This document shows, piece after piece, positions 1,803-31,684 of a stretch of 32,495 nucleotides of DNA. A program made the translations under genes and the position numbers. The notes under the pieces are model-generated. The model ran no database searches, was not told the DNA's origin, and saw only the letters and a program-made list of their open reading frames with translations. Location: contig JAFWQA010000021.1 of assembly GCA_017509255.1 (NCBI GenBank), positions 1 to 32,495 on the forward strand, written 5' to 3'. This DNA comes from Clostridia bacterium (GTDB lineage: Bacteria; Bacillota; Clostridia; Christensenellales; Aristaeellaceae). Every line of letters begins with the position of its first letter. Within the stretch, counting starts at the first letter, position 1.

Positions 1803-2243
1803 ATGCAGATATCGAGTCGGTTTACCATTGCGCTGCATATCTTCGCATGTGTCGAAACCTTCAAGGACGAGTATAAGGTCACCAGCGACTTCTTGGCGGG
1901 CAGCATCAACACCAACCCCGTCATCATCCGCCGGATCCTGACGCAGCTGAAAAGCGCCGGGCTGATCACAGTGGCTCGGGGCACAGGCGGAATCGAACCG
2001 ACCAGGGCGCTGGAGAAGATCAGCTTCTACGATGTATATCAGGCTATTGAGCCGGTGGAAAACGGCGACCTGTTCCACTTCCATGAAGCGCCAAATCCCA
2101 AGTGCCCGGTAGGCCGGAACATCCATGCCCTGCTGGACGATAAGCTGACGGCGATCCAGAACGCGATGGAAGACGAGATGAGAAAGTATACCCTCGCGGA
2201 TCTGCGGGAAGGCATGCACGATCTTCTGGCAAAGGGAAACTGA
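1803..2243 (+). CDS. Rrf2-family transcriptional regulator (YwnA-like)
   Basis: The 146-residue protein has the Rrf2 winged helix at the N-terminus: MQISSRFTIALHI, then a helix-turn-helix around TSDFLAGSINTNPVIIRRIL and the wing ARGTGG at about 59-64. Rrf2 proteins are DNA-binding sensors of redox or Fe-S status. The three-cysteine cluster of IscR/NsrR is absent; a single Cys lies in PNPKCPVGRNIH, as in the YwnA-like subgroup, so a thiol switch is more likely than a cluster. It is followed by a terminator and then by the flavin/ferredoxin-macrodomain-sirtuin operon, which it may control. Confidence 0.9.
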   Translation: MQISSRFTIALHIFACVETFKDEYKVTSDFLAGSINTNPVIIRRILTQLKSAGLITVARGTGGIEPTRALEKISFYDVYQAIEPVENGDLFHFHEAPNPKCPVGRNIHALLDDKLTAIQNAMEDEMRKYTLADLREGMHDLLAKGN

Positions 2244-2285: not shown

Positions 2286-2296
2286 AAGGAGTGCAC

Positions 2297-2917
2297 ATGG
2301 AAGCGAAAGATTATCTGGCGTATATCGTGAACGAAATTTACACGACCATCGTGGCAACGGTGGATGATGAGGGCCTTCCAATCACTGCCGCCATTGACAT
2401 GATGGACAGCGACGAGAGTAGCCTCTACTTCCTGACCGCAAAGGGAAAGGGCTTTTATAACCGTTTGAAAAAGCGCGGCTTTCTGGCTCTGACCGCGATC
2501 AAAGGGCAGGACACCATGTCCAGCGTGGCCGTTTCTGTTCGCGGCAAGGTCAGGGAGCTCGGCTACGAGCGGATTTCCGCGCTGTTTGAAAAGAACCCGT
2601 ACATGCACCAGATCTATCCGACGGAGGACGCGATGCACGCCCTGACGGTTTTCCAAATCTGGGAAGGAACCGGAGAATGGTTCGATCTCTCAAAGAAACC
2701 GATCGAACGGGCCTCCTTCACCTTCGGTGGCGCTCAGGAGCGGCCGGACGGGTTCTTCATCACGGACGCCTGTATCGGCTGCGGAAGCTGTCTTCCGGTA
2801 TGCCCGCAGAGCTGCATTGATTCCGCCACCGTTCCATTCCGTATCGTGCAGGCGCATTGTCTGCGCTGCGGCAACTGTATGACAGCCTGCCCTGCAGGGG
2901 CAGTGCAAAAGAGGTAA
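2297..2917 (+). CDS. FMN-binding split-barrel protein with C-terminal 2[4Fe-4S] ferredoxin domain
   Basis: This 206-residue protein joins two redox modules. Residues 1-130 read as a pyridoxamine-phosphate-oxidase-like FMN barrel (TTIVATVDDEGLPITAAID, then YFLTAKGKGFYNRLKK and VRGKVREL). Residues 159-201 carry two CxxCxxCxxxC clusters, with Cys 159, 162, 165 and 169 and Cys 188, 191, 194 and 198. The likely role is electron transfer between ferredoxin-type clusters and a flavin in the cytoplasm; the substrate is unknown. I chose the ATG at 2297 rather than the GTG at 2291 because AAAGGA lies at the right distance. The macrodomain gene starts 6 bp after the stop, so they form one operon. Confidence 0.87.
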   Translation: MEAKDYLAYIVNEIYTTIVATVDDEGLPITAAIDMMDSDESSLYFLTAKGKGFYNRLKKRGFLALTAIKGQDTMSSVAVSVRGKVRELGYERISALFEKNPYMHQIYPTEDAMHALTVFQIWEGTGEWFDLSKKPIERASFTFGGAQERPDGFFITDACIGCGSCLPVCPQSCIDSATVPFRIVQAHCLRCGNCMTACPAGAVQKR

Positions 2918-2923
2918 AGTACG

Positions 2924-3730
2924 ATGGACAAAACGATGACGCAGGACCAGCGGCTGAGCTTTCTGGTGGAAGCTTTCAAGGTCGATTCCGGTGAATATAA
3001 GGATCTGATCACGCCAGGGGACACCGGTGACAGGCGGCGCATCCTCCGCTCCCTGATGAACATCCGCATGCCGGGCGCGATGCCGGAGGACGTGCTGCGG
3101 GTACAGGATGATTACCTGCGGGGCCGTGCTGAAGAAAAAGGCGTCGTCACACTGGACGATATCCCGGCGCTTCCGGGTGGTCTCTCCCTCTGGCAGGGCG
3201 ACATCACCAGACTGGCCGTGGACGCCATCGTCAACGCCGCCAACTCGCAGATGCTCGGCTGCTTCGTGCCCATGCATACCTGCATCGACAACTGCATCCA
3301 CACCTTTGCGGGGATCCAGCTCCGCGCAGCCTGCAGCCGGCAGATGGAAGCGCTGCGGCGGCAATATGGGCCGGATTACGAGCAGCCAACCTCCGTCCCT
3401 ATGCTGACGGACGCCTATAATCTGCCCGCGAAAAAGGTAATCCATATCGTGGGGCCCATCGTGGAGGACCGGCTGACGCCGGCTTTGGAGCAGGCACTGG
3501 CCGACTGCTATACGAATACGCTGGATATGTGCGCGGTGAACGGGCTGAAAAGCGTAGCCTTTTGCTGTATCTCCACAGGGGTCTTCCGTTTTCCGGGCCG
3601 AAGGGCGGCACAGATCGCGGTGAAGGCCGTCAAAGAATGGATGCATGGGCATCCCGGTGCCATGGATCGTGTGATCTTCAATGTCTACAAGGATGAGGAT
3701 AAAGCATACTATGAGCAGGAATTACGATAA
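2924..3730 (+). CDS. Zinc-dependent macrodomain protein-ADP-ribose hydrolase
   Basis: The 268-residue protein is a macrodomain with a 90-residue N-terminal extension, as in the SirTM-linked Zn-macro family. Visible are GDITRLAVDAIVNAAN (92-107), the zinc site in GCFVPMHTC (Cys113, His118, Cys120), and the phosphate loop STGVFRFP (217-224). Family knowledge: these enzymes remove ADP-ribose that SirTM places on a target, using zinc in the active site. It overlaps the sirtuin start by 20 bp and lies 6 bp after the FMN/ferredoxin gene, so writer, eraser and redox protein are made together. All zinc ligands are present, so it should be active. Confidence 0.92.
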   Translation: MDKTMTQDQRLSFLVEAFKVDSGEYKDLITPGDTGDRRRILRSLMNIRMPGAMPEDVLRVQDDYLRGRAEEKGVVTLDDIPALPGGLSLWQGDITRLAVDAIVNAANSQMLGCFVPMHTCIDNCIHTFAGIQLRAACSRQMEALRRQYGPDYEQPTSVPMLTDAYNLPAKKVIHIVGPIVEDRLTPALEQALADCYTNTLDMCAVNGLKSVAFCCISTGVFRFPGRRAAQIAVKAVKEWMHGHPGAMDRVIFNVYKDEDKAYYEQELR

Positions 3731-4703
3731 AAGACCGAACGGCTATCTCGAGACCATTCAGCAGGGGCTGGACGGTGTGCGCGGCTTCCGGGGTGGTTTG
3801 TCCCTGGGCATCGGCACCCGTGCGGAACAGATCGGGCGGCTGAAGACGGAACTGAAGACAGCGGACGCCATCGTGATCGGCGCGGGAGCTGGCCTGTCCA
3901 CCTCGGCGGGCTTTGTCTACAGCGGAGAACGCTTCCGTTCCTGGTTTTCGGATTTCGCGGACCGCTTCGGGATCACGGATATGTATTCCGGCGGCTTCTA
4001 CCCGTTTCCGGATGAGGAAACCTACTGGGCGTGGTGGAGCCGGCACATCTGGTGCAACCGGTACGCGAACGCGCCGAAGCCTGTCTACGAGAACCTCCTG
4101 CAGCTTGTTGCAGGCAAGGATTATTTCGTGATCACCACCAATGTGGATCACATGTTCCAGAGGGCGGGCTTTGACAAGAAGCGCCTGTTCTATACCCAGG
4201 GCGACTACGGCCTTTTCCAGAACCAGCACCCGACGTTGCAGAAGACGTGGGACAACGAAGCCTGGGTCATGCAGGCCATGGCCGCACAGGGCTTTGTGAA
4301 GCACACGGATGGCTCGTTTGTTATGCCGAAGGACAGAAAAGTAGCCATGCGCATTCCGACCACGCTGATTCCCCGCAGCCCGGAGGACGGACGTAAGGTG
4401 GTGCCCAATCTCCGGGCAGATGATTCCTTTGTGGAAGACGAAGGATGGCACCGGGCATCAGCAGCCTATTCCGATTATCTCCGCCTGCATCAGGGGCAGC
4501 ATGTGCTGTATCTGGAGATCGGCGTCGGCAGCAACACGCCTGTCATCATCAAGTATCCCTTCTGGCAGATGACGAATGATAACCCGAAGGCAGTTTACTG
4601 CTGCCTTAACTACAATGAGGCCTACTGTCCAAAGCAGATTGAGGCTCAGAGCATCTGCATCGACGGGGATACGGGAAGCCTACTGCGTGAACTGCTTCTG
4701 TGA
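3711..4703 (+). CDS. SirTM-class sirtuin (protein ADP-ribosyltransferase)
   Basis: The 330-residue protein has the Sir2 NAD-binding signature GAGAGLSTSAGF (57-68) and the TTNVDH loop (142-147). Where deacetylase sirtuins have the catalytic His, it reads YTQGDYG, with Gln at 163. Class-M sirtuins (SirTM) are known for this change and act as ADP-ribosyltransferases, not deacylases. The ATG at 3711 overlaps the macrodomain stop and fits the usual N-terminus; the in-frame ATG at 3681 lies deep inside that gene. In staphylococci and streptococci the neighbours are a GcvH-like carrier and a lipoate ligase; neither is present here. A terminator follows at once. Confidence 0.93.
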   Translation: MSRNYDKRPNGYLETIQQGLDGVRGFRGGLSLGIGTRAEQIGRLKTELKTADAIVIGAGAGLSTSAGFVYSGERFRSWFSDFADRFGITDMYSGGFYPFPDEETYWAWWSRHIWCNRYANAPKPVYENLLQLVAGKDYFVITTNVDHMFQRAGFDKKRLFYTQGDYGLFQNQHPTLQKTWDNEAWVMQAMAAQGFVKHTDGSFVMPKDRKVAMRIPTTLIPRSPEDGRKVVPNLRADDSFVEDEGWHRASAAYSDYLRLHQGQHVLYLEIGVGSNTPVIIKYPFWQMTNDNPKAVYCCLNYNEAYCPKQIEAQSICIDGDTGSLLRELLL

Positions 4704-20371: not shown

Positions 20372-20550
20372 TTCAAAATGGAATGGTGTGATATGTTGGC
20401 TGGTTCAGAAAAATTCACTGGATGAGTCCAGTCTGATCAGCGGGTCGGTACGGTACTTTGAACACTTTTTGGCAAACGCGCTTTCCATTACAGCTCCTTT
20501 GACAGCTGCCCGGTTACCAAAAGGTAACTATGTAATAAAATAGTGCGTAC

Positions 20551-20580
20551 TTGTATGCTGTATGCCTCTTCCCTTATCAT
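20551..20580 (+). promoter_or_regulatory. Candidate promoter of the RiPP cluster
   Basis: TTGTAT (20551-20556), 18 bp and TATCAT (20575-20580), 45 bp before the precursor ATG. A TTGACA at 20499-20504 lacks a -10 at normal spacing. The ribosome site AAGGAGGA (20611-20618) is very strong, as expected for an abundant precursor. Confidence 0.5.
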
Positions 20581-20625
20581 GAAAACACGGAAGATCCTTC
20601 CGAATCTGACAAGGAGGACAAACAC

Positions 20626-20862
20626 ATGGCTCTGAACAATCTGGCTTCCTGGAACATGCAGATGGCTCCCGTCGCCTGCGGCGCGGCCTGCGGGGCATCC
20701 GACAAGCCCGCCGAGAAGCAGAAGCCCGCGGCTCAGCCTGCTGCCTGCGGCGCTGCCGATCAACCTGCCGAACAGCCCGCAGCTTGCGGGGCTGCTGACA
20801 AGCCTGCCGAAAGAGAAAAGCCTGCTGCCTGTGGGGCAGCCTGCGGCGCTGGCGACAAGTGA
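20626..20862 (+). CDS. RiPP precursor with six ACGA motifs (ACGX-repeat type)
   Basis: A 78-residue peptide starting at ATG 20626, right after AAGGAGGA. Residues 1-16 (MALNNLASWNMQMAPV) look like a leader. The rest is low in complexity and has six Cys, at 18, 22, 41, 54, 69 and 73, each within A-C-G-A. Linkers are built of Lys, Pro, Ala, Glu and Gln (SDKPAEKQKP, ADQPAEQP). The first and last motifs are doubled (ACGAACGA). Peptides of this kind next to a SPASM radical SAM enzyme have been named ACGX-repeat peptides in genome surveys; I recall the name but no structure for the product. The maturase gene follows after 74 bp. Modification at the Cys is the obvious expectation, giving a thioether-bridged peptide. 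Confidence 0.85.
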   Translation: MALNNLASWNMQMAPVACGAACGASDKPAEKQKPAAQPAACGAADQPAEQPAACGAADKPAEREKPAACGAACGAGDK

Positions 20863-20882
20863 TGGAAATCTGACCCGTTCAT

Positions 20883-20908
20883 GCTCCGACCGCCGCGGCT
20901 GTCGGAGC
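20883..20908 (+). promoter_or_regulatory. Intercistronic hairpin between precursor and maturase
   Basis: A perfect 8-bp stem GCTCCGAC/GTCGGAGC with a 10-nt loop and no T-run. Such hairpins commonly keep the upstream message stable or let only part of the transcripts continue, giving more precursor than enzyme. Confidence 0.6.
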
Positions 20909-20936
20909 GATCCTGGAATCAAGTGAGGCAAACGGC

Positions 20937-21992
20937 ATGAAACAGTATTTCGCTTTTCAGTGGCATATCACGGATGACTGTGATCAGCGCTGCAAGCACT
21001 GCTATATCTTTGCGGAGAACACTTGCAAGCAGCTTGACAGCATGACCTGGGATCAGATGCAGGAAGTGGTGGCCAACTGCGAGAATTTCTGTGAAATGTA
21101 TGGCCGTCTGCCTTATTTCTATATCACCGGCGGAGACCCGATCCTGCATCCGGATTTCTGGCCGTTGCTGGAAATGCTGGCTGTGAAGCGGATCCCCTTC
21201 ACCATCATGGGCAATCCCTTCCATTTGACGGACGAAAACTGCCGGCGGATGAAGATGCTTGGTTGTGAGAAATATCAGCTTTCCATCGACGGATTGGAAC
21301 AGACCCATGACTGGTTCCGGAAACCCGGGAGTTACCGGACCACGCTGGAGAAAATCGGCACCATTAACCGGGCAGGGGTCCGCTCGGTGGTGATGACGAC
21401 CGTCAGCGGGACGAACATCCGTGAGGTGCCCGGGATCATCGACGCAGTGGTGGAAGCCGGGGCCTGTGTATATGCGTTCGCCCGCTACTGTCCCACCGGC
21501 GGGGACAAAGATACTGGTATGACATCTCAGGAATACCGGCACCTGCTGGAAGTCTGCGACGCCAAGTTCAAGGCGTATGAGGCGGCGGGCTGCGGCACTT
21601 ACTTCAACCGCAAGGACCACCTGTGGACGCTGTACCAGTACGAAACCGGAGAGTTCGCGATCCCGGACAGCGCGGAGCCGGGGATGATCTACGGCGGCTG
21701 CAACTGCGGCAACTGCCACATCACCATCCTGCCCAGTGGAGACGTGTACGCCTGCCGCCGGGTGCAAAACAGCAGGGTTGGCAACGTCTTTGAAGACCGG
21801 TTGGCTGACCTGTGGGTCTGCGAGATGGAACAGTATCGGGAATATAATCAGTTCAAAAAGTGCACGAAATGTGAGCTGAGGCCCTGGTGTAGGGGCTGTC
21901 CTGCGGTGGCAAGCAGCGCGAATGGAGACTTCTACGCGCCTGATCCCCAATGCTGGAAAACGAAGAACGATTTGACCGGGGAGGTGCTGTGA
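20937..21992 (+). CDS. Radical SAM/SPASM peptide maturase
   Basis: The 351-residue protein has the radical SAM cluster motif CDQRCKHC (Cys15, Cys19, Cys22), the GGDPILHP motif in FYITGGDP, and a SPASM C-terminus binding auxiliary Fe-S clusters: GGCNCGNC, then ILPSGDVYACRR, CTKCELRPWCRGCPA and a last Cys near PDPQCWK. SPASM maturases use S-adenosylmethionine radicals to make C-S or C-C crosslinks in ribosomal peptides, in the cytoplasm. With the ACGA-repeat precursor directly upstream, this is its cognate enzyme. The ATG at 20937 follows AAGTGAGG. The stop abuts the nitroreductase ATG, so the two are coupled. Confidence 0.95.
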   Translation: MKQYFAFQWHITDDCDQRCKHCYIFAENTCKQLDSMTWDQMQEVVANCENFCEMYGRLPYFYITGGDPILHPDFWPLLEMLAVKRIPFTIMGNPFHLTDENCRRMKMLGCEKYQLSIDGLEQTHDWFRKPGSYRTTLEKIGTINRAGVRSVVMTTVSGTNIREVPGIIDAVVEAGACVYAFARYCPTGGDKDTGMTSQEYRHLLEVCDAKFKAYEAAGCGTYFNRKDHLWTLYQYETGEFAIPDSAEPGMIYGGCNCGNCHITILPSGDVYACRRVQNSRVGNVFEDRLADLWVCEMEQYREYNQFKKCTKCELRPWCRGCPAVASSANGDFYAPDPQCWKTKNDLTGEVL

Positions 21993-22574
21993 ATGGAATT
22001 GCTGGAATTGATGAAGTATCGCCGTTCGATCCGCAAATATGAAGACCAGCAGGTTGAAAAAGCCGATCTGGAAAAGGTGATTCAGGCCGGGCTGTTCGCT
22101 CCCAACGCGGGCGGAGGCCAGCGCAGCATGATCGTGGCGGTACACAATCCGGAACTGGTGGAGAAGCTGGGCCGGCTGAATGTGGCCTGCATGGACCGCA
22201 GCCGCCTGATCGGTTCCCATGTGTCAGCGGAGCAGCCCAGCATCATCGACGATCCCGCCATCAAAAGCGGTTTCTACGGTGCGCCGACGGTGTGCGTTGT
22301 CTTCGCGATGAAGAACTTCCTCTACAGTATTCCGGATGCTTTCTGCTGCGCGGAAAACATGGTGCTGGAAGCCACAGAATTGGGGCTGGCCTCCTGCATC
22401 ATCGCCCGGGGAGAGGAAACCTTCGCGAACCCTGAGGGACAAACATACCTGAAACAATGGAACATCCCGGAAAACTATGTTGCGCGTTGCTTTGTGCTGC
22501 TGGGATACTGCAAAGGCGATTACCCAACCGAAAAGCCCCGGAAGCCGGGACGCAGCATGATTGTGGAGGAGTGA
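21993..22574 (+). CDS. Nitroreductase-family FMN oxidoreductase
   Basis: The 193-residue protein has the nitroreductase opening MELLELMKYRRSIRKYEDQQV, the FMN contact APNAGGGQRS, a central helix with DAFCCAENMVLEATELGLASC and the ending RCFVLLGYCKGDYP. It binds FMN and reduces or oxidises small or peptidic substrates with NAD(P)H. It starts one base after the maturase stop with GGGGAGGTG upstream. Relatives in some RiPP clusters dehydrogenate azolines, so it could work on the peptide, but an unrelated redox job is possible. Confidence 0.92.
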   Translation: MELLELMKYRRSIRKYEDQQVEKADLEKVIQAGLFAPNAGGGQRSMIVAVHNPELVEKLGRLNVACMDRSRLIGSHVSAEQPSIIDDPAIKSGFYGAPTVCVVFAMKNFLYSIPDAFCCAENMVLEATELGLASCIIARGEETFANPEGQTYLKQWNIPENYVARCFVLLGYCKGDYPTEKPRKPGRSMIVEE

Positions 22575-22579
22575 AATCA

Positions 22580-23128
22580 ATGAAGCGTACTTTCCTGATC
22601 TTTCTCTGTGTGACCTTGCTGGGAGGAATGCTGATGACCGCCCAAGCCGAAGAAACGACCCTGGGTTTCTTCGAAGAACTGAACTTCGAGGATGGGATCA
22701 GTGTGGTCGTGGATGTGTTTCAGCGCTTCCCGCTGCAATACGCCACCACCCTGGGACTTGATGGGAATCCGCAGATCCGGCCCATCGAGTTCAAGTTTGA
22801 AGAGGACGGGGTGCTGTATTTCGATACCGTGACCTTCTATACGTCTTACCGCGAGCTGCAAGCGCATCCCTATATCCAGCTCTGTGTTTGCGACCAGGAG
22901 ACCATGACCTATGTGCGGCTGGGCGGCAAAGTGAATTTCACCACAGATCAGAGCGTCATCGACCGATGCTTTGAAGCCAGTCCGGTGCTGACCAGCCAGT
23001 TCGGGAACCGTCGGGACGTGGTCATTGGTTACTATCTCACCGAGGTCTGGGCGGAGTTTGCTTCCTTCTCAGCAGAGCTGCCCAACAAAACCTATCGTCT
23101 TCCCAACAAATACGACGCAGCAGAATGA
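22580..23128 (+). CDS. Exported PPOX-fold (FMN split barrel) protein
   Basis: The 182-residue protein has a Sec signal ending TAQAEE (cut after about residue 22) followed by a pyridoxamine-phosphate-oxidase-like barrel: FQRFPLQYATTLGLDGNPQIRPIEFKFEEDGVLYFDT, YRELQAHPYIQLCVCDQETMTYVRLGGKVNF, then a tail with NRRDVVIGYYLTEVWAEF. Proteins of this fold bind FMN, F420 or heme. Export of the fold is unusual. It starts 5 bp after the nitroreductase stop and is the last gene of the cluster, ending at a terminator. Confidence 0.87.
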   Translation: MKRTFLIFLCVTLLGGMLMTAQAEETTLGFFEELNFEDGISVVVDVFQRFPLQYATTLGLDGNPQIRPIEFKFEEDGVLYFDTVTFYTSYRELQAHPYIQLCVCDQETMTYVRLGGKVNFTTDQSVIDRCFEASPVLTSQFGNRRDVVIGYYLTEVWAEFASFSAELPNKTYRLPNKYDAAE

Positions 23129-23176: not shown

Positions 23177-23512
23177 TTATTCTGCTGTCCTGATCATCTG
23201 CTGATAGACTTTTCCCCAGATCTCCATGGTCTCAATGATGGGACGCATGGAATTGCCGAGCTCACTGAGGGCATATTCCACCCTGGGCGGCACTTCGGGA
23301 AAGACCGTGCGGGTGATGATGCCGTCATTTTCCAGTGCGCGGAGATTATCCGTCAGCACCTTCTGGCTGATGCCGGGAATGGAGCGCAGCATCTCATTGA
23401 ACCGCCAGGGCCGGACCAGCAGATTGCGCAGGATCAGCAGCTTCCACTTGTTGCCGATGAGCTGTACCGTGGTGGCCACCGGGCAATCCGGGAGTTCTTC
23501 TTTGGTCAGCAT
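23177..23512 (-). CDS. HxlR-family winged-helix regulator
   Basis: The 111-residue protein has the HxlR core: CPVATTVQLIGNKWKLLILRNLL, RFNEMLRSIPGISQKVLTDNLRALENDGIITR and the wing PRVEYALSELG. I chose the ATG at 23512 because GGAGG lies 8 nt upstream; the longer frame from 23539 has no ribosome site. HxlR proteins are dimeric regulators that often sense electrophiles or redox state through the N-terminal Cys (here in PDCPVATT) and control flavin reductases. It is convergent with the RiPP operon and might regulate its nitroreductase/PPOX genes, but no shared operator is visible. Confidence 0.92.
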   Translation of the reverse strand: MLTKEELPDCPVATTVQLIGNKWKLLILRNLLVRPWRFNEMLRSIPGISQKVLTDNLRALENDGIITRTVFPEVPPRVEYALSELGNSMRPIIETMEIWGKVYQQMIRTAE

Positions 23513-23645
23513 ATGCAGCACCTCCGGAGGAATGTACATCCATATTTGAATGCTGCAGTCATTTTAACTTGCAGAACGCTGATCGTCAACACACTGCTGG
23601 ATCCGAAAACAGAAAAACAAAAAGCAAACCGCTGAGCGGCCATAA

Positions 23646-26433: not shown

Positions 26434-26662
26434 CTTCGTATCCTTTCCGCTGTCTTACAGCTTTCAAAATCTTGGTTCCGTATGTTTGTACGCAGCAGCA
26501 TGACCCGCTGGCAGTACCGGACGAAAATTTTGCCGAATACTTTTTTCCGCTATGCCTTGGGACGGAAAATCAGTAATTTTCCTTACTAAGACTGAAGTCC
26601 GCTGACATCTCCAATTATATGCCAAATGCTCCCAAATTACAATGGAAAAGTAGGTGAACTTT

Positions 26663-27229
26663 ATGGCCGAAACCCTGCGCGAACTGGTGGTCGCGCTGTC
26701 GCTGGATTCCAGCAATTTCTCGCGCAATATGCGCACCATCAACCAGCAGATCAAGGAAGCCGAGTCCACCTTCCGTCTGGCCGGGGCTGGTGTACAGAAC
26801 TACGAAAAGACCATCGCGGGCACGGAAGCCAAGCTGTCCATGCTGGGACAGAAGCTTACCCAGCAGCAGCGGGCCGTGGAACAGTACAGTCGGGCTCTGG
26901 TGGCAGCGAACGATAAGCTGAAGGAAAACTACGACCGGCATCAGGACTACACCCAGCGGCTGGAGCAGGCCAAGGCCCGTCAGGAAGATCTGCGGTTTGA
27001 AGTGGAAGCGGCTACTGTCGCCTATGAAAATTACCGTGATTCCCTGGGCGAAACGGACTCCGCCACCATTGCCGCCAAACAGAATCTGGAAGCCTATCAG
27101 CAGGAATATGAGGAAGCGACCGCCGAGGTCACCAAGCTGGAAGGTCAGGTCAAGGCCCTGCAGAAGACCATGCAGAACAGCGCGGACGCGGTCAGCAAGG
27201 CACAGACCGACCTGAACAACGCTAAGGCA
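26663..27229 (+). pseudogene. N-terminal stub of a phage tail tape-measure protein
   Basis: The first 189 residues are a tape-measure start: MAETLRELVVALSLDSSNFS, then TINQQIKEAESTFRLAGAGV and a long coiled coil (SMLGQKLTQQQRAVEQYSRA to QKTMQNSADAVSKAQTDLNN). After AKA at 27229 the text changes to unrelated AT-rich DNA. Full tape measures are 700-1500 residues or more. The frame stays open through the junction and runs into the next gene, so automated calls would yield a false 1674-residue fusion. ATG at 26663 has a TAGGTG site. Confidence 0.75.
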
Positions 27230-27355
27230 TTCAAAGAGATTTATGCCTTTGGTGCCGGCCTCGATTGGTTCGTACTTCTATTGCAGCATACATCGTCAAT
27301 TGTGCGGCGTTGCCTTAGATTTCTGACGAGGAATCAAAAACGCAGTGAAATTTCC

Positions 27356-27384
27356 TTGTTAACCCGTCGAAAAAGTGGTACAAT
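27356..27384 (+). promoter_or_regulatory. Promoter of the large secreted protein
   Basis: TTGTTA (27356-27361), 17 bp and TACAAT (27379-27384). The 255 bp between the tape-measure stub and the next start hold this promoter and an AGGAGG site at 27471-27476, showing that the secreted protein has its own transcript. Confidence 0.75.
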
Positions 27385-27484
27385 AGACCGAATATATATA
27401 TCATCCGTCAAACAACGGACCTCAGGGCCGTTCACTTTTGTGACAGGACTTGCACCGAAGCATTCTTCAGAGGAGGAAATGAAC

Positions 27485-30400
27485 ATGACGAAACGGTTGA
27501 GCGGCCGCGGACTGGTGCTGCTGCTCTGCGCGATTGCGGCGCTGGGGTTGTTTGCTGCTGCCGCCCTCGCGGACGGCGCGGTGCCCTATGTGGAGCGCAG
27601 CTGGAACGGCACGCAGGTCGTGTCCACCGATCAAACCCATACCGCCGAGCCGGTGCCTTCCAACGGCAATATGACCAGCGGCTGGTATTATCTGAACAGC
27701 AACGTCACCAAGAACGGCCGCGTGGAATCCATCACCGGTGACGTCTGCCTGATCCTGGGCGACGGTTACACCCTGGATGTGAAGGGCCTGTACGTCCCCC
27801 AGGGCAGTACGCTGACGATCTATGCCCAGAGCGATGGTGAGAATGCCGGCAAGATCTATTCTCATCCCTCCGGCGGCGCGGCCATCGGCGGCTACTCCGG
27901 GCATGACAACGGCAATATCGTGATCCACGGCGGCACCATCGAGACTACGGGCTATGACCACTGCGCGGGCATCGGCAGCAACGACGGCAAGACCGGCGGC
28001 GCCATCACGATCTATGGCGGCGAAATCACGGCCACGGGCGGCAGCGACGGCGCGGGCATCGGCGGCGGCCGGAACTGCAGCGGCGGCACCATCACCATCT
28101 ACGGCGGCGACATCACCGCCCACGGTGGCAGCGAGAACGGCGCGGGCATCGGCGGCGGTGACAGCGGCGACGGCGGCACCATCGTCATCTGGGGCGGTAC
28201 CATCACCGCCAACGAAGATCCCAATGAGAACGGCGCAGGCATCGGCGGCGGCGACTGCGGCAACGGCGGCACCATCACCATCCACGGCGGCACGCTTACG
28301 CTTTACAGCCGCGACGGCGCAGGCATCGGCGGCGGCGACGACGGCGACGGCGGCACCATCACGATTCACGGCGGCACCATCACCTCGACCAAAGTGAACC
28401 AGGGCCAGGGTGCGCGCATCGGCGGCGGCTGTGACGGTGCTCCCGGTACGATCATCGTCAGCGGCGGCACGGTCACCACCATCGGCGGCTCCGGCGCGGG
28501 AATCGGCGGCGGCAAGGGGAACAAATCGGGCGGCTCGGTCACCATCGACGGCGGCATCATCAGCGCCAGCGGCAGTTACGGCATCGGCAGCGGCGAGGAG
28601 GGTGCCGACGTGGCCATCACCCTCGGCTGGACGGACGCCACGAGTGAGACCATCAGCATCACCGCTTCTTCCTATGGTGGGACCGTCACGGCAGCACAGC
28701 CGTTCAAGACGGATACGACTCTGATCTATCCGGGCACCGTGACGGACGTGAGCCCGCTCGCGGGCAGCACGCTGCTTGCCTGGGACGGAAAAATCACTTC
28801 CTGGGGCATGCTGCAGTTGGCTGTCAACTCCGCGCAGGACGGCGCGGTCATCACGCTCCAGCAGAGCCTTACGGCCAATTCCAGCGACACGGCGATCGTG
28901 GTTCCCGGGGGTAAGACCGTCACCCTGGATCTGAACGGCTTCACGCTGGACCGCGCCATGACGGACGCGGCAGCCGACGGCTATGTGATCCGGAACAACG
29001 GAACGCTGATAATCATCGACTCCGGGGACAGTGAAGCTGCCGGCACAATCCGGGGCGGCTGGAACACCGGAGACGGTGGCGGCATTTACAACACTGGCAC
29101 CCTGAACCTGCAGGGCGGCTTGATCGAAACCAACAAATCCGGCGGAAACGGCGGCGGCATCTATAACGCGGGTACGGTCAACATGACCAGCGGCACGATC
29201 CGGCTTAACAGCGCCGACACAGGGGGCGGCGGCGTTCATGTCTCTGAAAGCGCCAATCTGGTTGTCTCCGGCTCTCCCACCGTGGAGAACAACACCAAAG
29301 GAGAGTTGGCCAACAACATCAACCTCGCTGGTAATGCTGTCATTCAGGTAGATGGCGCGCTGGCAGAAGGCGCGAGGCTCGGCGTGTTCATATCCGGCGC
29401 ATTCGGTGTGTTTACCGACGGCTATGGCGCGAACAACACGGCCTCTCCGGACAGCTTCTTCTTCGCGGATACCGGTGGTTGGTGCGTTTTCCTGGAGGAA
29501 GGTGAAGGTTCTCTGAGCTCCACATGGGAGCAGTTCAGGCTGTCACTCAATCAGGGCGGTTCGATTGCCCTCACCGAGGATATCACGGCTTTCCCGTATG
29601 ACAGTATCCTCTCGATTCCAGCCGGCGTCACGGTTGAGCTGGACCTGCAGGGGCACACACTGGACGCTTCTGCATTGAATCCCCCTGCAGGGGTCGAGTA
29701 CCCCTGCTGTCTGTCGATCAATGGAATCCTCACGCTGTCGGATACCGTCGGCGGAGGCCGGTTCAAAGGCGGCGACAACGGGTTTATCGACTTCATTGCA
29801 GCGGAATCCGGCTCCTCCTTTACGATGAACGGAGGCGCCATCGTCGGCTCCGGGACCCTGGAGAACGTTGTGTACGTGTACGACTATGCCACCTTTACCA
29901 TGTGCGGGGGCGCCGTCACCGCCGACATGAACGGTACAGTACGCAGGTTTGGCCGGGTCAGTGTGGATGATTACGCGACCTTCATCATGAACGGCGGCAC
30001 GATCGGCGGCTCCGGGGGACAATCGGACATCTATGCAGATGGCGGCTGCGTCTGGCTGAACGGCGGATCTCTCACCGGCAGCGATCCGGCATATGGCAAT
30101 GTATATGTTCTTTCTGCGGACCAAATCAAAAATGGCCAGCTCTTTGTCTCCGGCTCGCCGCTCATGTCCAAGGGCGTGTATCTGGACTACGATCACACCA
30201 TCACCGTAGCCGGCCCGCTGGGTGAGGACGTGATCATCCCCGTCATGACGGAAGCTAAGCCCACCTCCGCTGAGCCCGTGATCATCACCAACGGACTTGC
30301 GCAGGGTGGAGAAAACGCCGTTTCCCATTTCACAAGCGCATCCGATATCTGGTGTGTGGTGCTGAACGACGACGGCGAAGCTGAATTGCGGAAAGCCCCG

Positions 30401-31684
30401 ACTGAGTGGGACACGCTGCAGCTGCTCATCGACGGCACGGAGAACGGCGGGGTCCTCACCCTGGAAAAAGACTATACCGCGACAAACAAGGATCGGTACC
30501 TGAATATCGCCGGCGGGAAAGCGCTGACCATCGATCTGAACGGGCACACCATCGACGGGTCCGCGCTGAATGACGACTATGTGATGACTATCAGCGGAAA
30601 CCTGACCCTGCGTGACTCAACAGGCGGCGGCACCGTCCTGGGCCGCAATCATCAGGATGTCATCAAAACCACGTCCGAAAACGCTGTCCTCTGCCTTGAA
30701 AGCGGCACGATCCACGGTGACAACTGCTATGATGTCGTGTACGTCTATGCTGGCGGCAGCTTCATCATGACCGGCGGCACTGTGTCCGGAAGCGGGAGCA
30801 GCGGCCATATCGACGTTTTAGTGGAATGTGGCACATTTACCCTGACCGGAGGATCCATCCGTGCTGATCAGAAGGGGTCTGATACCGCAGTCTTGACCAC
30901 TAAGTATACGAACTTTAACCTTCAGGGTTCACCGGACATCAAAGGGAGCTTCGAGCTGGGAAAACCCGTACAGTTCACCGGGCCGATCAGTCACGACCTG
31001 CGAATCAAGGTACGTCGTACCGGTGATCTGCACAATGAATGGAATGATGTGTTCACATCCGGACTGCCCGGCAACGGTACGGTGAATAATTTCATCAGTT
31101 ACTATCCGAAGAATTACGCGGTGGGCCTGAACGAAGCCGGCGAGGCTTTCCTGGGCAGTCCCGTCACCGTCGTCTTCGCCCCCGGTTATGAGACGAATGA
31201 GACCATGGAAACCGTGAGTTGGGCAAAGGACGGGTGGTATCCGCTGCCCGCGTGCGGATTCAGCGGGCCGGCGGGTCACGCCTTTGCCGGCTGGCGTGTT
31301 TGGGAAGACGCGGAAACCGTCAATGCGGGAGATTTGATCAATGTGTCAGACGGCATCACGCTGACAGCGGTCTGGCAGGTGGGTGCCTTCGGCAACCCGG
31401 ACTTCGAGATTCCCACCGGCACGCGCACCATCGGGGACAACGCCTTCGAGGGCATCGCGGCCACGGTGGTGGAGATTCCGGAGGACTGCACACACATCGG
31501 AAACGAGGCTTTCAGGTACTGCACGCAGCTGACCATGATCCGGATCCCGGCGGGCTGCCAGCTGGGCGAGCGCGTCTTTGACGGCTGCACGAAGGTGTAC
31601 GTCTTCGGCGCCGCGGGCAGCGATGCGCAGCGCTACTGCAATGAGAACGCGAACTGCGTGTTCGTGGAGGATGCGCAGGAGTGA
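27485..31684 (+). CDS. Large secreted Gly-rich beta-helix / BspA-like surface protein
   Basis: The 1399-residue protein starts at ATG 27485, 8 nt after AGGAGG, with a Sec signal (VLLLCAIAALGLFAAAALAD, cut near 29). Residues about 128-378 are a Gly-rich beta-helix of roughly 24-residue turns with GAGIGGG and GGTITIHGGTIT. Further beta-helix domains follow, each starting with a hydrophobic strand and DLNGxTLD or DLQGHTLD (about 475, 720 and 1020). A Listeria-Bacteroides repeat (VVFAPGYETNETM to ITLTAVWQ, about 1222-1299) and a BspA-type leucine-rich end (GTRTIGDNAFEGIAATVVEI, about 1308-1390) close it. No LPxTG or membrane anchor is seen. A role in adhesion or glycan binding is likely. Confidence 0.85.
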   Translation: MTKRLSGRGLVLLLCAIAALGLFAAAALADGAVPYVERSWNGTQVVSTDQTHTAEPVPSNGNMTSGWYYLNSNVTKNGRVESITGDVCLILGDGYTLDVKGLYVPQGSTLTIYAQSDGENAGKIYSHPSGGAAIGGYSGHDNGNIVIHGGTIETTGYDHCAGIGSNDGKTGGAITIYGGEITATGGSDGAGIGGGRNCSGGTITIYGGDITAHGGSENGAGIGGGDSGDGGTIVIWGGTITANEDPNENGAGIGGGDCGNGGTITIHGGTLTLYSRDGAGIGGGDDGDGGTITIHGGTITSTKVNQGQGARIGGGCDGAPGTIIVSGGTVTTIGGSGAGIGGGKGNKSGGSVTIDGGIISASGSYGIGSGEEGADVAITLGWTDATSETISITASSYGGTVTAAQPFKTDTTLIYPGTVTDVSPLAGSTLLAWDGKITSWGMLQLAVNSAQDGAVITLQQSLTANSSDTAIVVPGGKTVTLDLNGFTLDRAMTDAAADGYVIRNNGTLIIIDSGDSEAAGTIRGGWNTGDGGGIYNTGTLNLQGGLIETNKSGGNGGGIYNAGTVNMTSGTIRLNSADTGGGGVHVSESANLVVSGSPTVENNTKGELANNINLAGNAVIQVDGALAEGARLGVFISGAFGVFTDGYGANNTASPDSFFFADTGGWCVFLEEGEGSLSSTWEQFRLSLNQGGSIALTEDITAFPYDSILSIPAGVTVELDLQGHTLDASALNPPAGVEYPCCLSINGILTLSDTVGGGRFKGGDNGFIDFIAAESGSSFTMNGGAIVGSGTLENVVYVYDYATFTMCGGAVTADMNGTVRRFGRVSVDDYATFIMNGGTIGGSGGQSDIYADGGCVWLNGGSLTGSDPAYGNVYVLSADQIKNGQLFVSGSPLMSKGVYLDYDHTITVAGPLGEDVIIPVMTEAKPTSAEPVIITNGLAQGGENAVSHFTSASDIWCVVLNDDGEAELRKAPTEWDTLQLLIDGTENGGVLTLEKDYTATNKDRYLNIAGGKALTIDLNGHTIDGSALNDDYVMTISGNLTLRDSTGGGTVLGRNHQDVIKTTSENAVLCLESGTIHGDNCYDVVYVYAGGSFIMTGGTVSGSGSSGHIDVLVECGTFTLTGGSIRADQKGSDTAVLTTKYTNFNLQGSPDIKGSFELGKPVQFTGPISHDLRIKVRRTGDLHNEWNDVFTSGLPGNGTVNNFISYYPKNYAVGLNEAGEAFLGSPVTVVFAPGYETNETMETVSWAKDGWYPLPACGFSGPAGHAFAGWRVWEDAETVNAGDLINVSDGITLTAVWQVGAFGNPDFEIPTGTRTIGDNAFEGIAATVVEIPEDCTHIGNEAFRYCTQLTMIRIPAGCQLGERVFDGCTKVYVFGAAGSDAQRYCNENANCVFVEDAQE
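27950..28590 (+). repeat. Internal tandem coding repeats of the beta-helix
   Basis: About eight degenerate copies of a 70-75 bp unit encode GAGIGGG plus GGTITIxGGxIT turns; the DNA keeps runs such as GGCGGCACCATC and GGCATCGGCGGCGGC. Such arrays can change copy number by recombination. Confidence 0.75.

Follow-up and report, generated by a model that had tools for sequence, protein, structure and literature searches.

The DNA analysed here, called the window throughout, is a stretch of 32,495 nucleotides from a Clostridia bacterium of the family Aristaeellaceae (assembly GCA_017509255.1, contig JAFWQA010000021.1). It carries a gene for a ribosomally synthesized and post-translationally modified peptide (RiPP) of the ACGX family followed by the gene for its radical SAM/SPASM maturase. 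We read this locus, with a probability of roughly 60%, as the window's copy of an intracellular thiol- or electrophile-stress module that is found in Clostridia of gut and rumen and is linked to the reversible ADP-ribosylation of proteins. The ACGX/SPASM pair itself has already been named (TIGR04341 for the precursor, TIGR04340 for the enzyme), and what is new is the operon setting with a class M sirtuin (SirTM) and a Zn-macrodomain, whereby the ACGX operon is a second type of extended SirTM operon, distinct from the GcvH-L type. The two TIGR names are silent on the operon, the regulator, the operator, the Cys-x3-Asp grammar and SirTM. A literature search, mostly without subscription papers, returned no paper with the ACGX family names, none joining ACGX with SPASM (the word ACGX appeared on other subjects, judging by titles) and none combining sirtuin, macrodomain, radical SAM and operon, and the 2024 Zn-macrodomain paper contains none of the terms "radical SAM", "nitroreductase" and "ferredoxin". 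The operon may thus show what the SirTM/macrodomain pair acts on, and the ACGX peptides, found only as a family name, gain a setting and a testable chemistry.

For quantification of the link to SirTM two samples were used, one of 391 genomes spread over the class and one of 300 genomes of the window's family. In the class sample 19 genomes matched TIGR04340 at E 1e-80, and 16 of them, in seven families, scored over its cut-off. With the enzyme counted above this cut-off and SirTM as a match at E 1e-20, SirTM was present in all 16 genomes with the enzyme and in 50 of the 375 others (66 of 391 in total; Fisher 8e-14, the Fisher tests given here ignoring relatedness); the class M mark itself was verified on 88 sirtuins only, not on each SirTM match counted. 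The three genomes below the cut-off gave no SirTM match (0/3), and the ACGX peptide was not seen in their loci.

In 12 of the 16 genomes the sirtuin gene shares the strand of the enzyme gene and starts 1.3 to 3.6 kb downstream of it; in the window it is 16 kb away, and in three genomes (G595, G615 and G631) it lies on another contig; the ACGX peptide is present in these three as well, and the operator core described below is found in G615, not in G595 or G631. In the 12 contiguous loci the genes follow a common order, namely a divergent HxlR gene, the operator core, the ACGX peptide, the radical SAM gene, a gene for either a nitroreductase or a quinone-oxidoreductase-type protein (QOR), usually a gene for a PPOX-fold protein fused to a ferredoxin (PPOX-ferredoxin), the Zn-macrodomain and SirTM. 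HxlR, operator core, ACGX, nitroreductase or QOR, macrodomain and SirTM are found in 12/12, and the PPOX-ferredoxin in 9/12. Commensals that carry the operon include Coprococcus comes (L093) and Frisingicoccus caecimuris (L065). A wider set was taken from a species-genome scan that yielded 413 stretches coding for an enzyme relative at E 1e-3, some of which may not be ACGX enzymes. The best 80 of these 413, from Clostridia and many from rumen or gut by their titles, make up with the window a set of 81 loci, which is not random and in which partner genes were found with profiles built from the neighbouring genes; counts on it exclude loci L001 to L039, several of which are duplicates of named loci. 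Where at least 5 kb of downstream sequence was available (56 loci), the PPOX-ferredoxin was found in 41, SirTM in 37 and the macrodomain in 25, the window being scored as having all three via its distant set (see below).

A shared operator provides a second line of evidence. The element recurring ahead of ACGX is a tandem, GTNAC-N6-GTNAC followed by GTNAY-N6-GTGCGTACTT, and the window contains a proposed HxlR-type operator of this kind upstream of the precursor (20513-20552, plus strand), which reads GTTACC-N4-GGTAAC and then GTAATAAAATAGTGCGTACTT, with 0 mismatches. Of the 71 loci with 700 bp of sequence ahead of the enzyme frame, 60 contain its ten-base core within that stretch. In the family sample the full pattern gave 56 sites in 40 of the 300 genomes, compared with 6 matches for the reversed pattern. 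Seventeen sites lie within 800 bp of a radical SAM gene, 4 before ACGX at contig ends and 2 before an HxlR gene followed by ACGX, while 16 are found at most 1.2 kb before SirTM, one of these with a small exported gene between; the others lie behind a macrodomain gene at a contig end (1), in nitroreductase loci (2), before a small exported-type family (2) and elsewhere (12). This sorting was done partly by hand, with all 56 sites and all 38 enzyme places entered together with only 20 SirTM places, the other SirTM places lying, by visual inspection, on contigs that have no operator site. In genomes lacking the ACGX enzyme the same operator was found ahead of SirTM or the macrodomain. The operator ties ACGX to SirTM even where the genes lie apart, though not in the window's genome.

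Where 2.2 kb or more of upstream sequence was available (63 loci), the HxlR gene is present in 54, and 56 of 64 HxlR proteins carry the Cys of a CPVAT or CAVAT motif. In the window the gene lies downstream of the peptide unit and convergent to it (23177-23539, minus strand; Pfam PF01638, 108.5 bits), and its product has the N-terminal CPVAT Cys; solved structures related to this protein include HxlR, YodB and YybR, the last of which we take to be HypR. We infer that the HxlR protein binds the operator, given where its gene lies and given that operator sites also precede HxlR genes. In Bacillus the N-terminal Cys of HypR, YodB and CatR senses hypochlorite, quinones and diamide, HxlR reportedly responds more specifically to aldehydes, and the genes that are controlled include one for a nitroreductase (PMC6943732). 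These DUF24 regulons have in common with the present one an HxlR-family regulator with an N-terminal Cys beside nitroreductase-type genes, whereas the regulon here also has a RiPP and an ADP-ribosylation pair. The operator was seen in addition before a "MKNYAKTTLGNEGRTELHDLLGLTGAEISINHLPSG"-type gene, with an HxlR gene in the locus (L175/L191 in G047, L188/L208 in G199), so that the regulon may be wider.

The third line of evidence concerns the known target of these sirtuins. SirTM modifies lipoylated GcvH-L, the macrodomain reverses the modification and a role as redox scavenger has been proposed (PMC4518038, PMC11490716), and SirTM sirtuins are known to occur in Lachnospiraceae and Clostridiaceae (PMC4518038). 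The extended SirTM operon with GcvH-L and LplA2 described in the two papers shares with the ACGX operon a class M sirtuin with QG, a Zn-macrodomain, oxidoreductases and a stress setting. The ACGX operon differs in that a radical-SAM peptide takes the place of GcvH-L, in having a nitroreductase or QOR and the PPOX-ferredoxin, not the old yellow enzyme (OYE) and luciferase-like monooxygenase (LLM), and in its HxlR-type operator. When a GcvH model was run against 14 ACGX genomes (completeness at least 90% in 13), no match was found in 11, and the other three gave short matches of 29.1, 22.2 and 21.3 bits, two of them reaching the cut-off of 22.2, on contigs that do not carry the operon; in control genomes the same search gave a match in 13 of 14, over the cut-off in 10. 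Regulator aside, no small non-enzyme other than the ACGX peptide was seen in the operon, and the peptide is therefore the best candidate for the missing carrier. The operon thus offers a candidate substrate for sirtuins of the Lachnospiraceae/Clostridiaceae type, GcvH having gone unfound in 11 of the 14 ACGX genomes searched.

Taken together, the proposed module would work as follows. A thiol-switch regulator of the HxlR type would control the tandem GTNAC-type operator, and upon induction a short, leader-poor, Cys-repeat peptide would be produced, in which the radical SAM enzyme most likely joins each Cys to the Asp four residues on in a thioether, with 2 Da lost per link, while the first Cys of every CGxAC doublet would stay free. 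The matured peptide might then undergo thiol redox reactions at several sites inside the cell, assisted by the nitroreductase or QOR and by the PPOX-ferredoxin, and SirTM may ADP-ribosylate the peptide or a protein of the module, a modification that the Zn-macrodomain would remove; the target would thus take the place that lipoyl-GcvH-L has in Staphylococcus and Streptococcus. More specifically we propose, tentatively and with more doubt than confidence, that the matured ACGX peptide is itself the SirTM substrate and that reversible ADP-ribosylation, probably on the Asp or the free Cys of ACGxACGAxD, switches the redox peptide on and off. If true, class M sirtuins would have a second, unrelated carrier replacing lipoyl-GcvH-L, and the peptide would to our knowledge be the first RiPP known to be regulated by ADP-ribosylation.

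A shared regulon without direct contact is a serious rival, and we place its odds somewhat below even. According to this explanation one thiol-stress signal governs both the ACGX unit and the SirTM/macrodomain pair, which is why they sit together, and SirTM acts on some other protein, never on the peptide. It agrees with the SirTM loci lacking the enzyme, some of which stand behind the same operator; when a number of such loci were chosen, not drawn (35 of 50 class genomes and 40 of 93 family genomes), the ACGX peptide went unseen in 35/35 and 39/40, respectively. The separation of the two gene sets in the window points the same way. On the other hand, a regulon alone does not account well for the contiguous, same-strand operon in 12 of the 16 class genomes, from four families, nor for the lack of GcvH as another target in most of the ACGX genomes examined.

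Several further observations weigh against a module built around the peptide. Six of the 12 contiguous operons, which represent four families, come from a single family, and the sirtuin of G595 shares only 42% identity with the query. The link is looser within the window's own family, with SirTM in 21 of 26 genomes with the precursor and in 98 of 274 others (Fisher 1e-5); counted by enzyme the figures are 26/38 and 93/262 (Fisher 1.5e-4), several of the enzymes not lying beside an ACGX peptide. Some enzymes matching TIGR04340 have no ACGX precursor seen upstream (L251 to L255, L257, L258 and L260 in family genomes, and L098) and are not ACGX systems, for which reason the family counts were also made by precursor. 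SirTM/macrodomain pairs are frequent without ACGX, so that ACGX cannot be their sole target. The ten-base core is absent in 11 of the 71 loci. Finally, the window's genome has the full operator pattern at one site only, at ACGX, the ten-base core giving 2 matches against 4 for the reversed core, which is chance level; the set of PPOX-ferredoxin, macrodomain and SirTM genes in the window (2291-4703) lies about 16 kb from the ACGX unit, beside an Rrf2 gene, and no second operator was found within the window. With the two sets 16 kb apart and no second operator, the window alone would give only a weak link to SirTM.

The peptide unit itself had been described in a first-pass annotation of this DNA, and all four of the genes claimed there are found in the window. 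The precursor of 78 residues (20626-20862, plus strand) scores 52.2 bits against TIGR04341 (cut-off 28), and its translation bears out the six ACGA motifs, doubled at both ends, that had been pointed out; its six Cys residues have Asp (4) or Cys (2) at position +4. The start had been placed at a TTG at 20551, which is wrong, as the gene starts at the ATG at 20626 with a good ribosome site, AAGGAGG, just upstream. Its stop codon lies 74 bp from the start of the radical SAM gene (20937-21992, plus strand; 351 residues), the product of which reaches 579.7 bits against TIGR04340 (cut-off 400). With both curated cut-offs passed, the pairing of an ACGX precursor with a SPASM enzyme seen in the first pass is the named system. 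The first pass had overlooked the Cys-x3-Asp grammar, the HxlR regulator with its operator, and the connection to SirTM and the Zn-macrodomain. Precursors without a nearby radical SAM gene, which the annotation had named as evidence against itself, were not encountered in the interior of contigs: 23 of the 26 genomes with a TIGR04341 precursor among the 300 have the gene, and the other three precursors are at contig ends.

The grammar of the repeat was scored on 69 distinct precursors with 462 Cys residues, six of the 69 being cut C-terminally by the reading window. The precursors came from a scan of 110 loci, six of which gave none by the rule used, and a few of the 104 obtained are doubtful (L030, L069). 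Cys is followed by Gly in 461 of the 462 cases and preceded by Ala in 444, and at position +4 it has Asp (232) or Cys (197), together 429 of 462. The divergent precursors L259, L261, L262 and L264 differ strongly in their spacers, but each of their Cys residues is still followed at +4 by Asp or Cys; in L263 this holds for four of five Cys, the fifth having Glu. Because the divergent precursors hold the +4 residue despite the changed spacers, the repeat is, judging from these sequences, mostly better described as A-C-G-x-x-D. The repeats are copies of each other, and a comparison was therefore made at the codon level. Among the C-terminal units (n=59) the ratio of nonsynonymous to synonymous changes (N/S) is 0 at the two Cys and two Gly positions, 0.09 at Asp and 0.37 at the Lys after Asp, compared with 1.7 to 2.1 at two free positions. 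As a separate observation, several repeats of the L025 precursor read RGAADK, with Arg in place of Cys, as if the peptide were decaying.

Beyond the Pfam domains Radical_SAM and SPASM, no Pfam domain exceeded its cut-off in the window enzyme. An AlphaFold model with a mean predicted local distance difference test score (pLDDT) of 81.8 has SkfB, SuiB, anSME, BlsE and PqqE as its nearest solved folds, so the predicted fold is of the ordinary SPASM type. As to the reaction, PapB cross-links the Cys-x3-Asp motifs in freyrasin and also accepts Glu (PMC9413430). The PapA/PapB ranthipeptide has in common with the ACGX system several Cys-x3-Asp motifs per peptide and a SPASM maturase, and the Glu variant has its counterpart in L263. 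The differences are that the window enzyme stays below the PapB cut-off (60.1 bits, cut-off 340), that Cys-Gly is fixed and that the context here is a stress operon. We consider the chance that the product is a Cys-Asp thioether to be about even. The 33 remaining Cys residues, with Gly (14), Ala (9), Glu (5) or the end of the sequence (5) at +4, speak against this bond, as do the internal repeats, in which N/S is 0.53 at Asp and 0.26 at the Pro at +6, so that Pro is held tighter.

The nearest other named enzyme family is SbtM (166.2 bits), which is also at odds with a thioether, since SbtM is a radical SAM enzyme making thiooxazoles in a thio(seleno)oxazole system (PMC11002830). The ACGX maturase could in the same way convert the backbone at Ala-Cys into a heterocycle and leave the rest of the module unchanged, and the near invariance of Ala before Cys and Gly after it would fit such a change at Cys. 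We nevertheless regard the thiooxazole as unlikely, as the SbtM cut-off of 350 bits is missed and as a heterocycle leaves the +4 Asp, held despite the spacer changes, without a reason. Less probable still is that the peptide is a metallothionein-like sink for metals or electrophiles and that the radical SAM step merely shapes it. The chains are indeed flexible, with many Cys among Ala, Gly, Lys, Pro and Glu residues, and the regulator is of a redox type, but few free thiols would be left if each Cys with a +4 Asp is cross-linked, and SirTM and the macrodomain would stay unexplained.

Not all members of the enzyme family may act on ACGX peptides. In L251 (G091, 970-1938) and L253 (G104, 472-1929; positions counted in the direction of the enzyme) the enzyme exceeds the TIGR04340 cut-off and adjoins a large frame with a C-terminus rich in Gly, Ser and Cys, for example SSCSSCGGSSCGSGGGSSF, and no ACGX peptide was seen; these frames are possibly a second type of substrate. 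The enzymes of L231, L232 and L233, all from one genus, score 285-308 bits against TIGR04340, and their loci are without ACGX or SirTM.

The maturase gene is followed by genes for a nitroreductase-family flavoprotein (21993-22574, plus strand; Pfam PF00881, 80.7 bits) and a signal-bearing PPOX-fold protein (22580-23128, plus strand; Pfam PF01243). The gap of 5 bp reported between these two is correct, while the gap from the radical SAM gene to the nitroreductase gene is 0 bp and not 1 bp. The nitroreductase proves to be a true partner, as had been supposed: relatives were found in 49 of the 81 loci and a QOR gene in 20, never both, and one or the other is present in 63 of the 70 loci with at least 1.2 kb downstream. 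The PPOX protein is of a second type that is accessory in a minority of relatives, found in 7 of the 81 loci (the same 7 among the 56 with at least 5 kb downstream). Its N-terminus does look like a signal peptide by eye, and the same applies to four of the seven genes (the window, L040, L042 and L046), L084 and L104 being without such a start and L048 being masked there.

Redox steps outside the cell, which the first-pass annotation had suggested, are not borne out with a signal-bearing PPOX protein in only 4 of 81 loci. The annotation had noted that no exporter or leader protease is encoded here. Among the gene clusters present in at least four of the 81 loci, with types assigned by eye and without a family search, no exporter- or protease-like gene keeps to one position; a cluster resembling ABC ATPases (15 loci) and one resembling MATE proteins (4 loci) occur on both strands at scattered distances. 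What had been called unexplained export may hence be better taken as no export, and on these two grounds the export reading was set aside. A secreted bacteriocin or signal with unlinked exporter and protease and an extracellular redox finish is very improbable, for although a repeat RiPP precursor with a radical SAM maturase and the signal on the window's PPOX protein would suit it, the partners are stress-type enzymes under a regulator of the thiol-switch type and the enzyme is spread over seven families of the class sample. The setting points to a redox role inside the cell and not to a secreted antibiotic, and if true the radical-SAM peptide would be part of the internal stress machinery of common gut bacteria.

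The distant set of the window begins with a gene for an Rrf2-family regulator (1803-2243, plus strand; Pfam Rrf2, 104.3 bits; a weak HypR match below the cut-off). It is followed by the gene for a PPOX-fold protein fused to two [4Fe-4S] ferredoxin motifs (2291-2917, plus strand; Pfam PNPOx_N and Fer4), relatives of which are found inside ACGX operons. Next comes the Zn-macrodomain, a protein-ADP-ribose hydrolase (2924-3730, plus strand; NF003163, 289.4 bits, cut-off 272; motif GCFVPMHTC), with 8rsi, 8rsm and 5kiv as its best PDB matches, which we take to be entries of Zn-macrodomains. The class M sirtuin gene (3681-4703, plus strand) has an uncertain start codon because its frame overlaps the macrodomain gene by 50 bp. 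Its product has 5a3a as best PDB match (E 5.5e-51), then the fusion 8rsn and no other at E 0.001, and contains TQG instead of HG, the replacement of the HG of other sirtuins by QG being the mark of class M (PMC4518038). TQG was found in 86 of the 88 SirTM scanned; the window SirTM is without the CPxC zinc-ribbon motif, as are 14 of these 88.

Beside this set the window encodes a small exported-type protein with an "NWAYG...GTIYYT" stretch (1287-1730), and frames resembling it were seen by eye in other genomes behind the same operator, adjoining ACGX or SirTM. A promoter scan gave promoter-like sites at chance level; terminator-like sites, 8 compared with a mean of 3.0, were above chance and were not used. 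Towards the end of the window a very long frame (26654-31684) has, by eye, a start like that of a phage tail tape-measure protein and continues as a Gly-rich surface-repeat protein.

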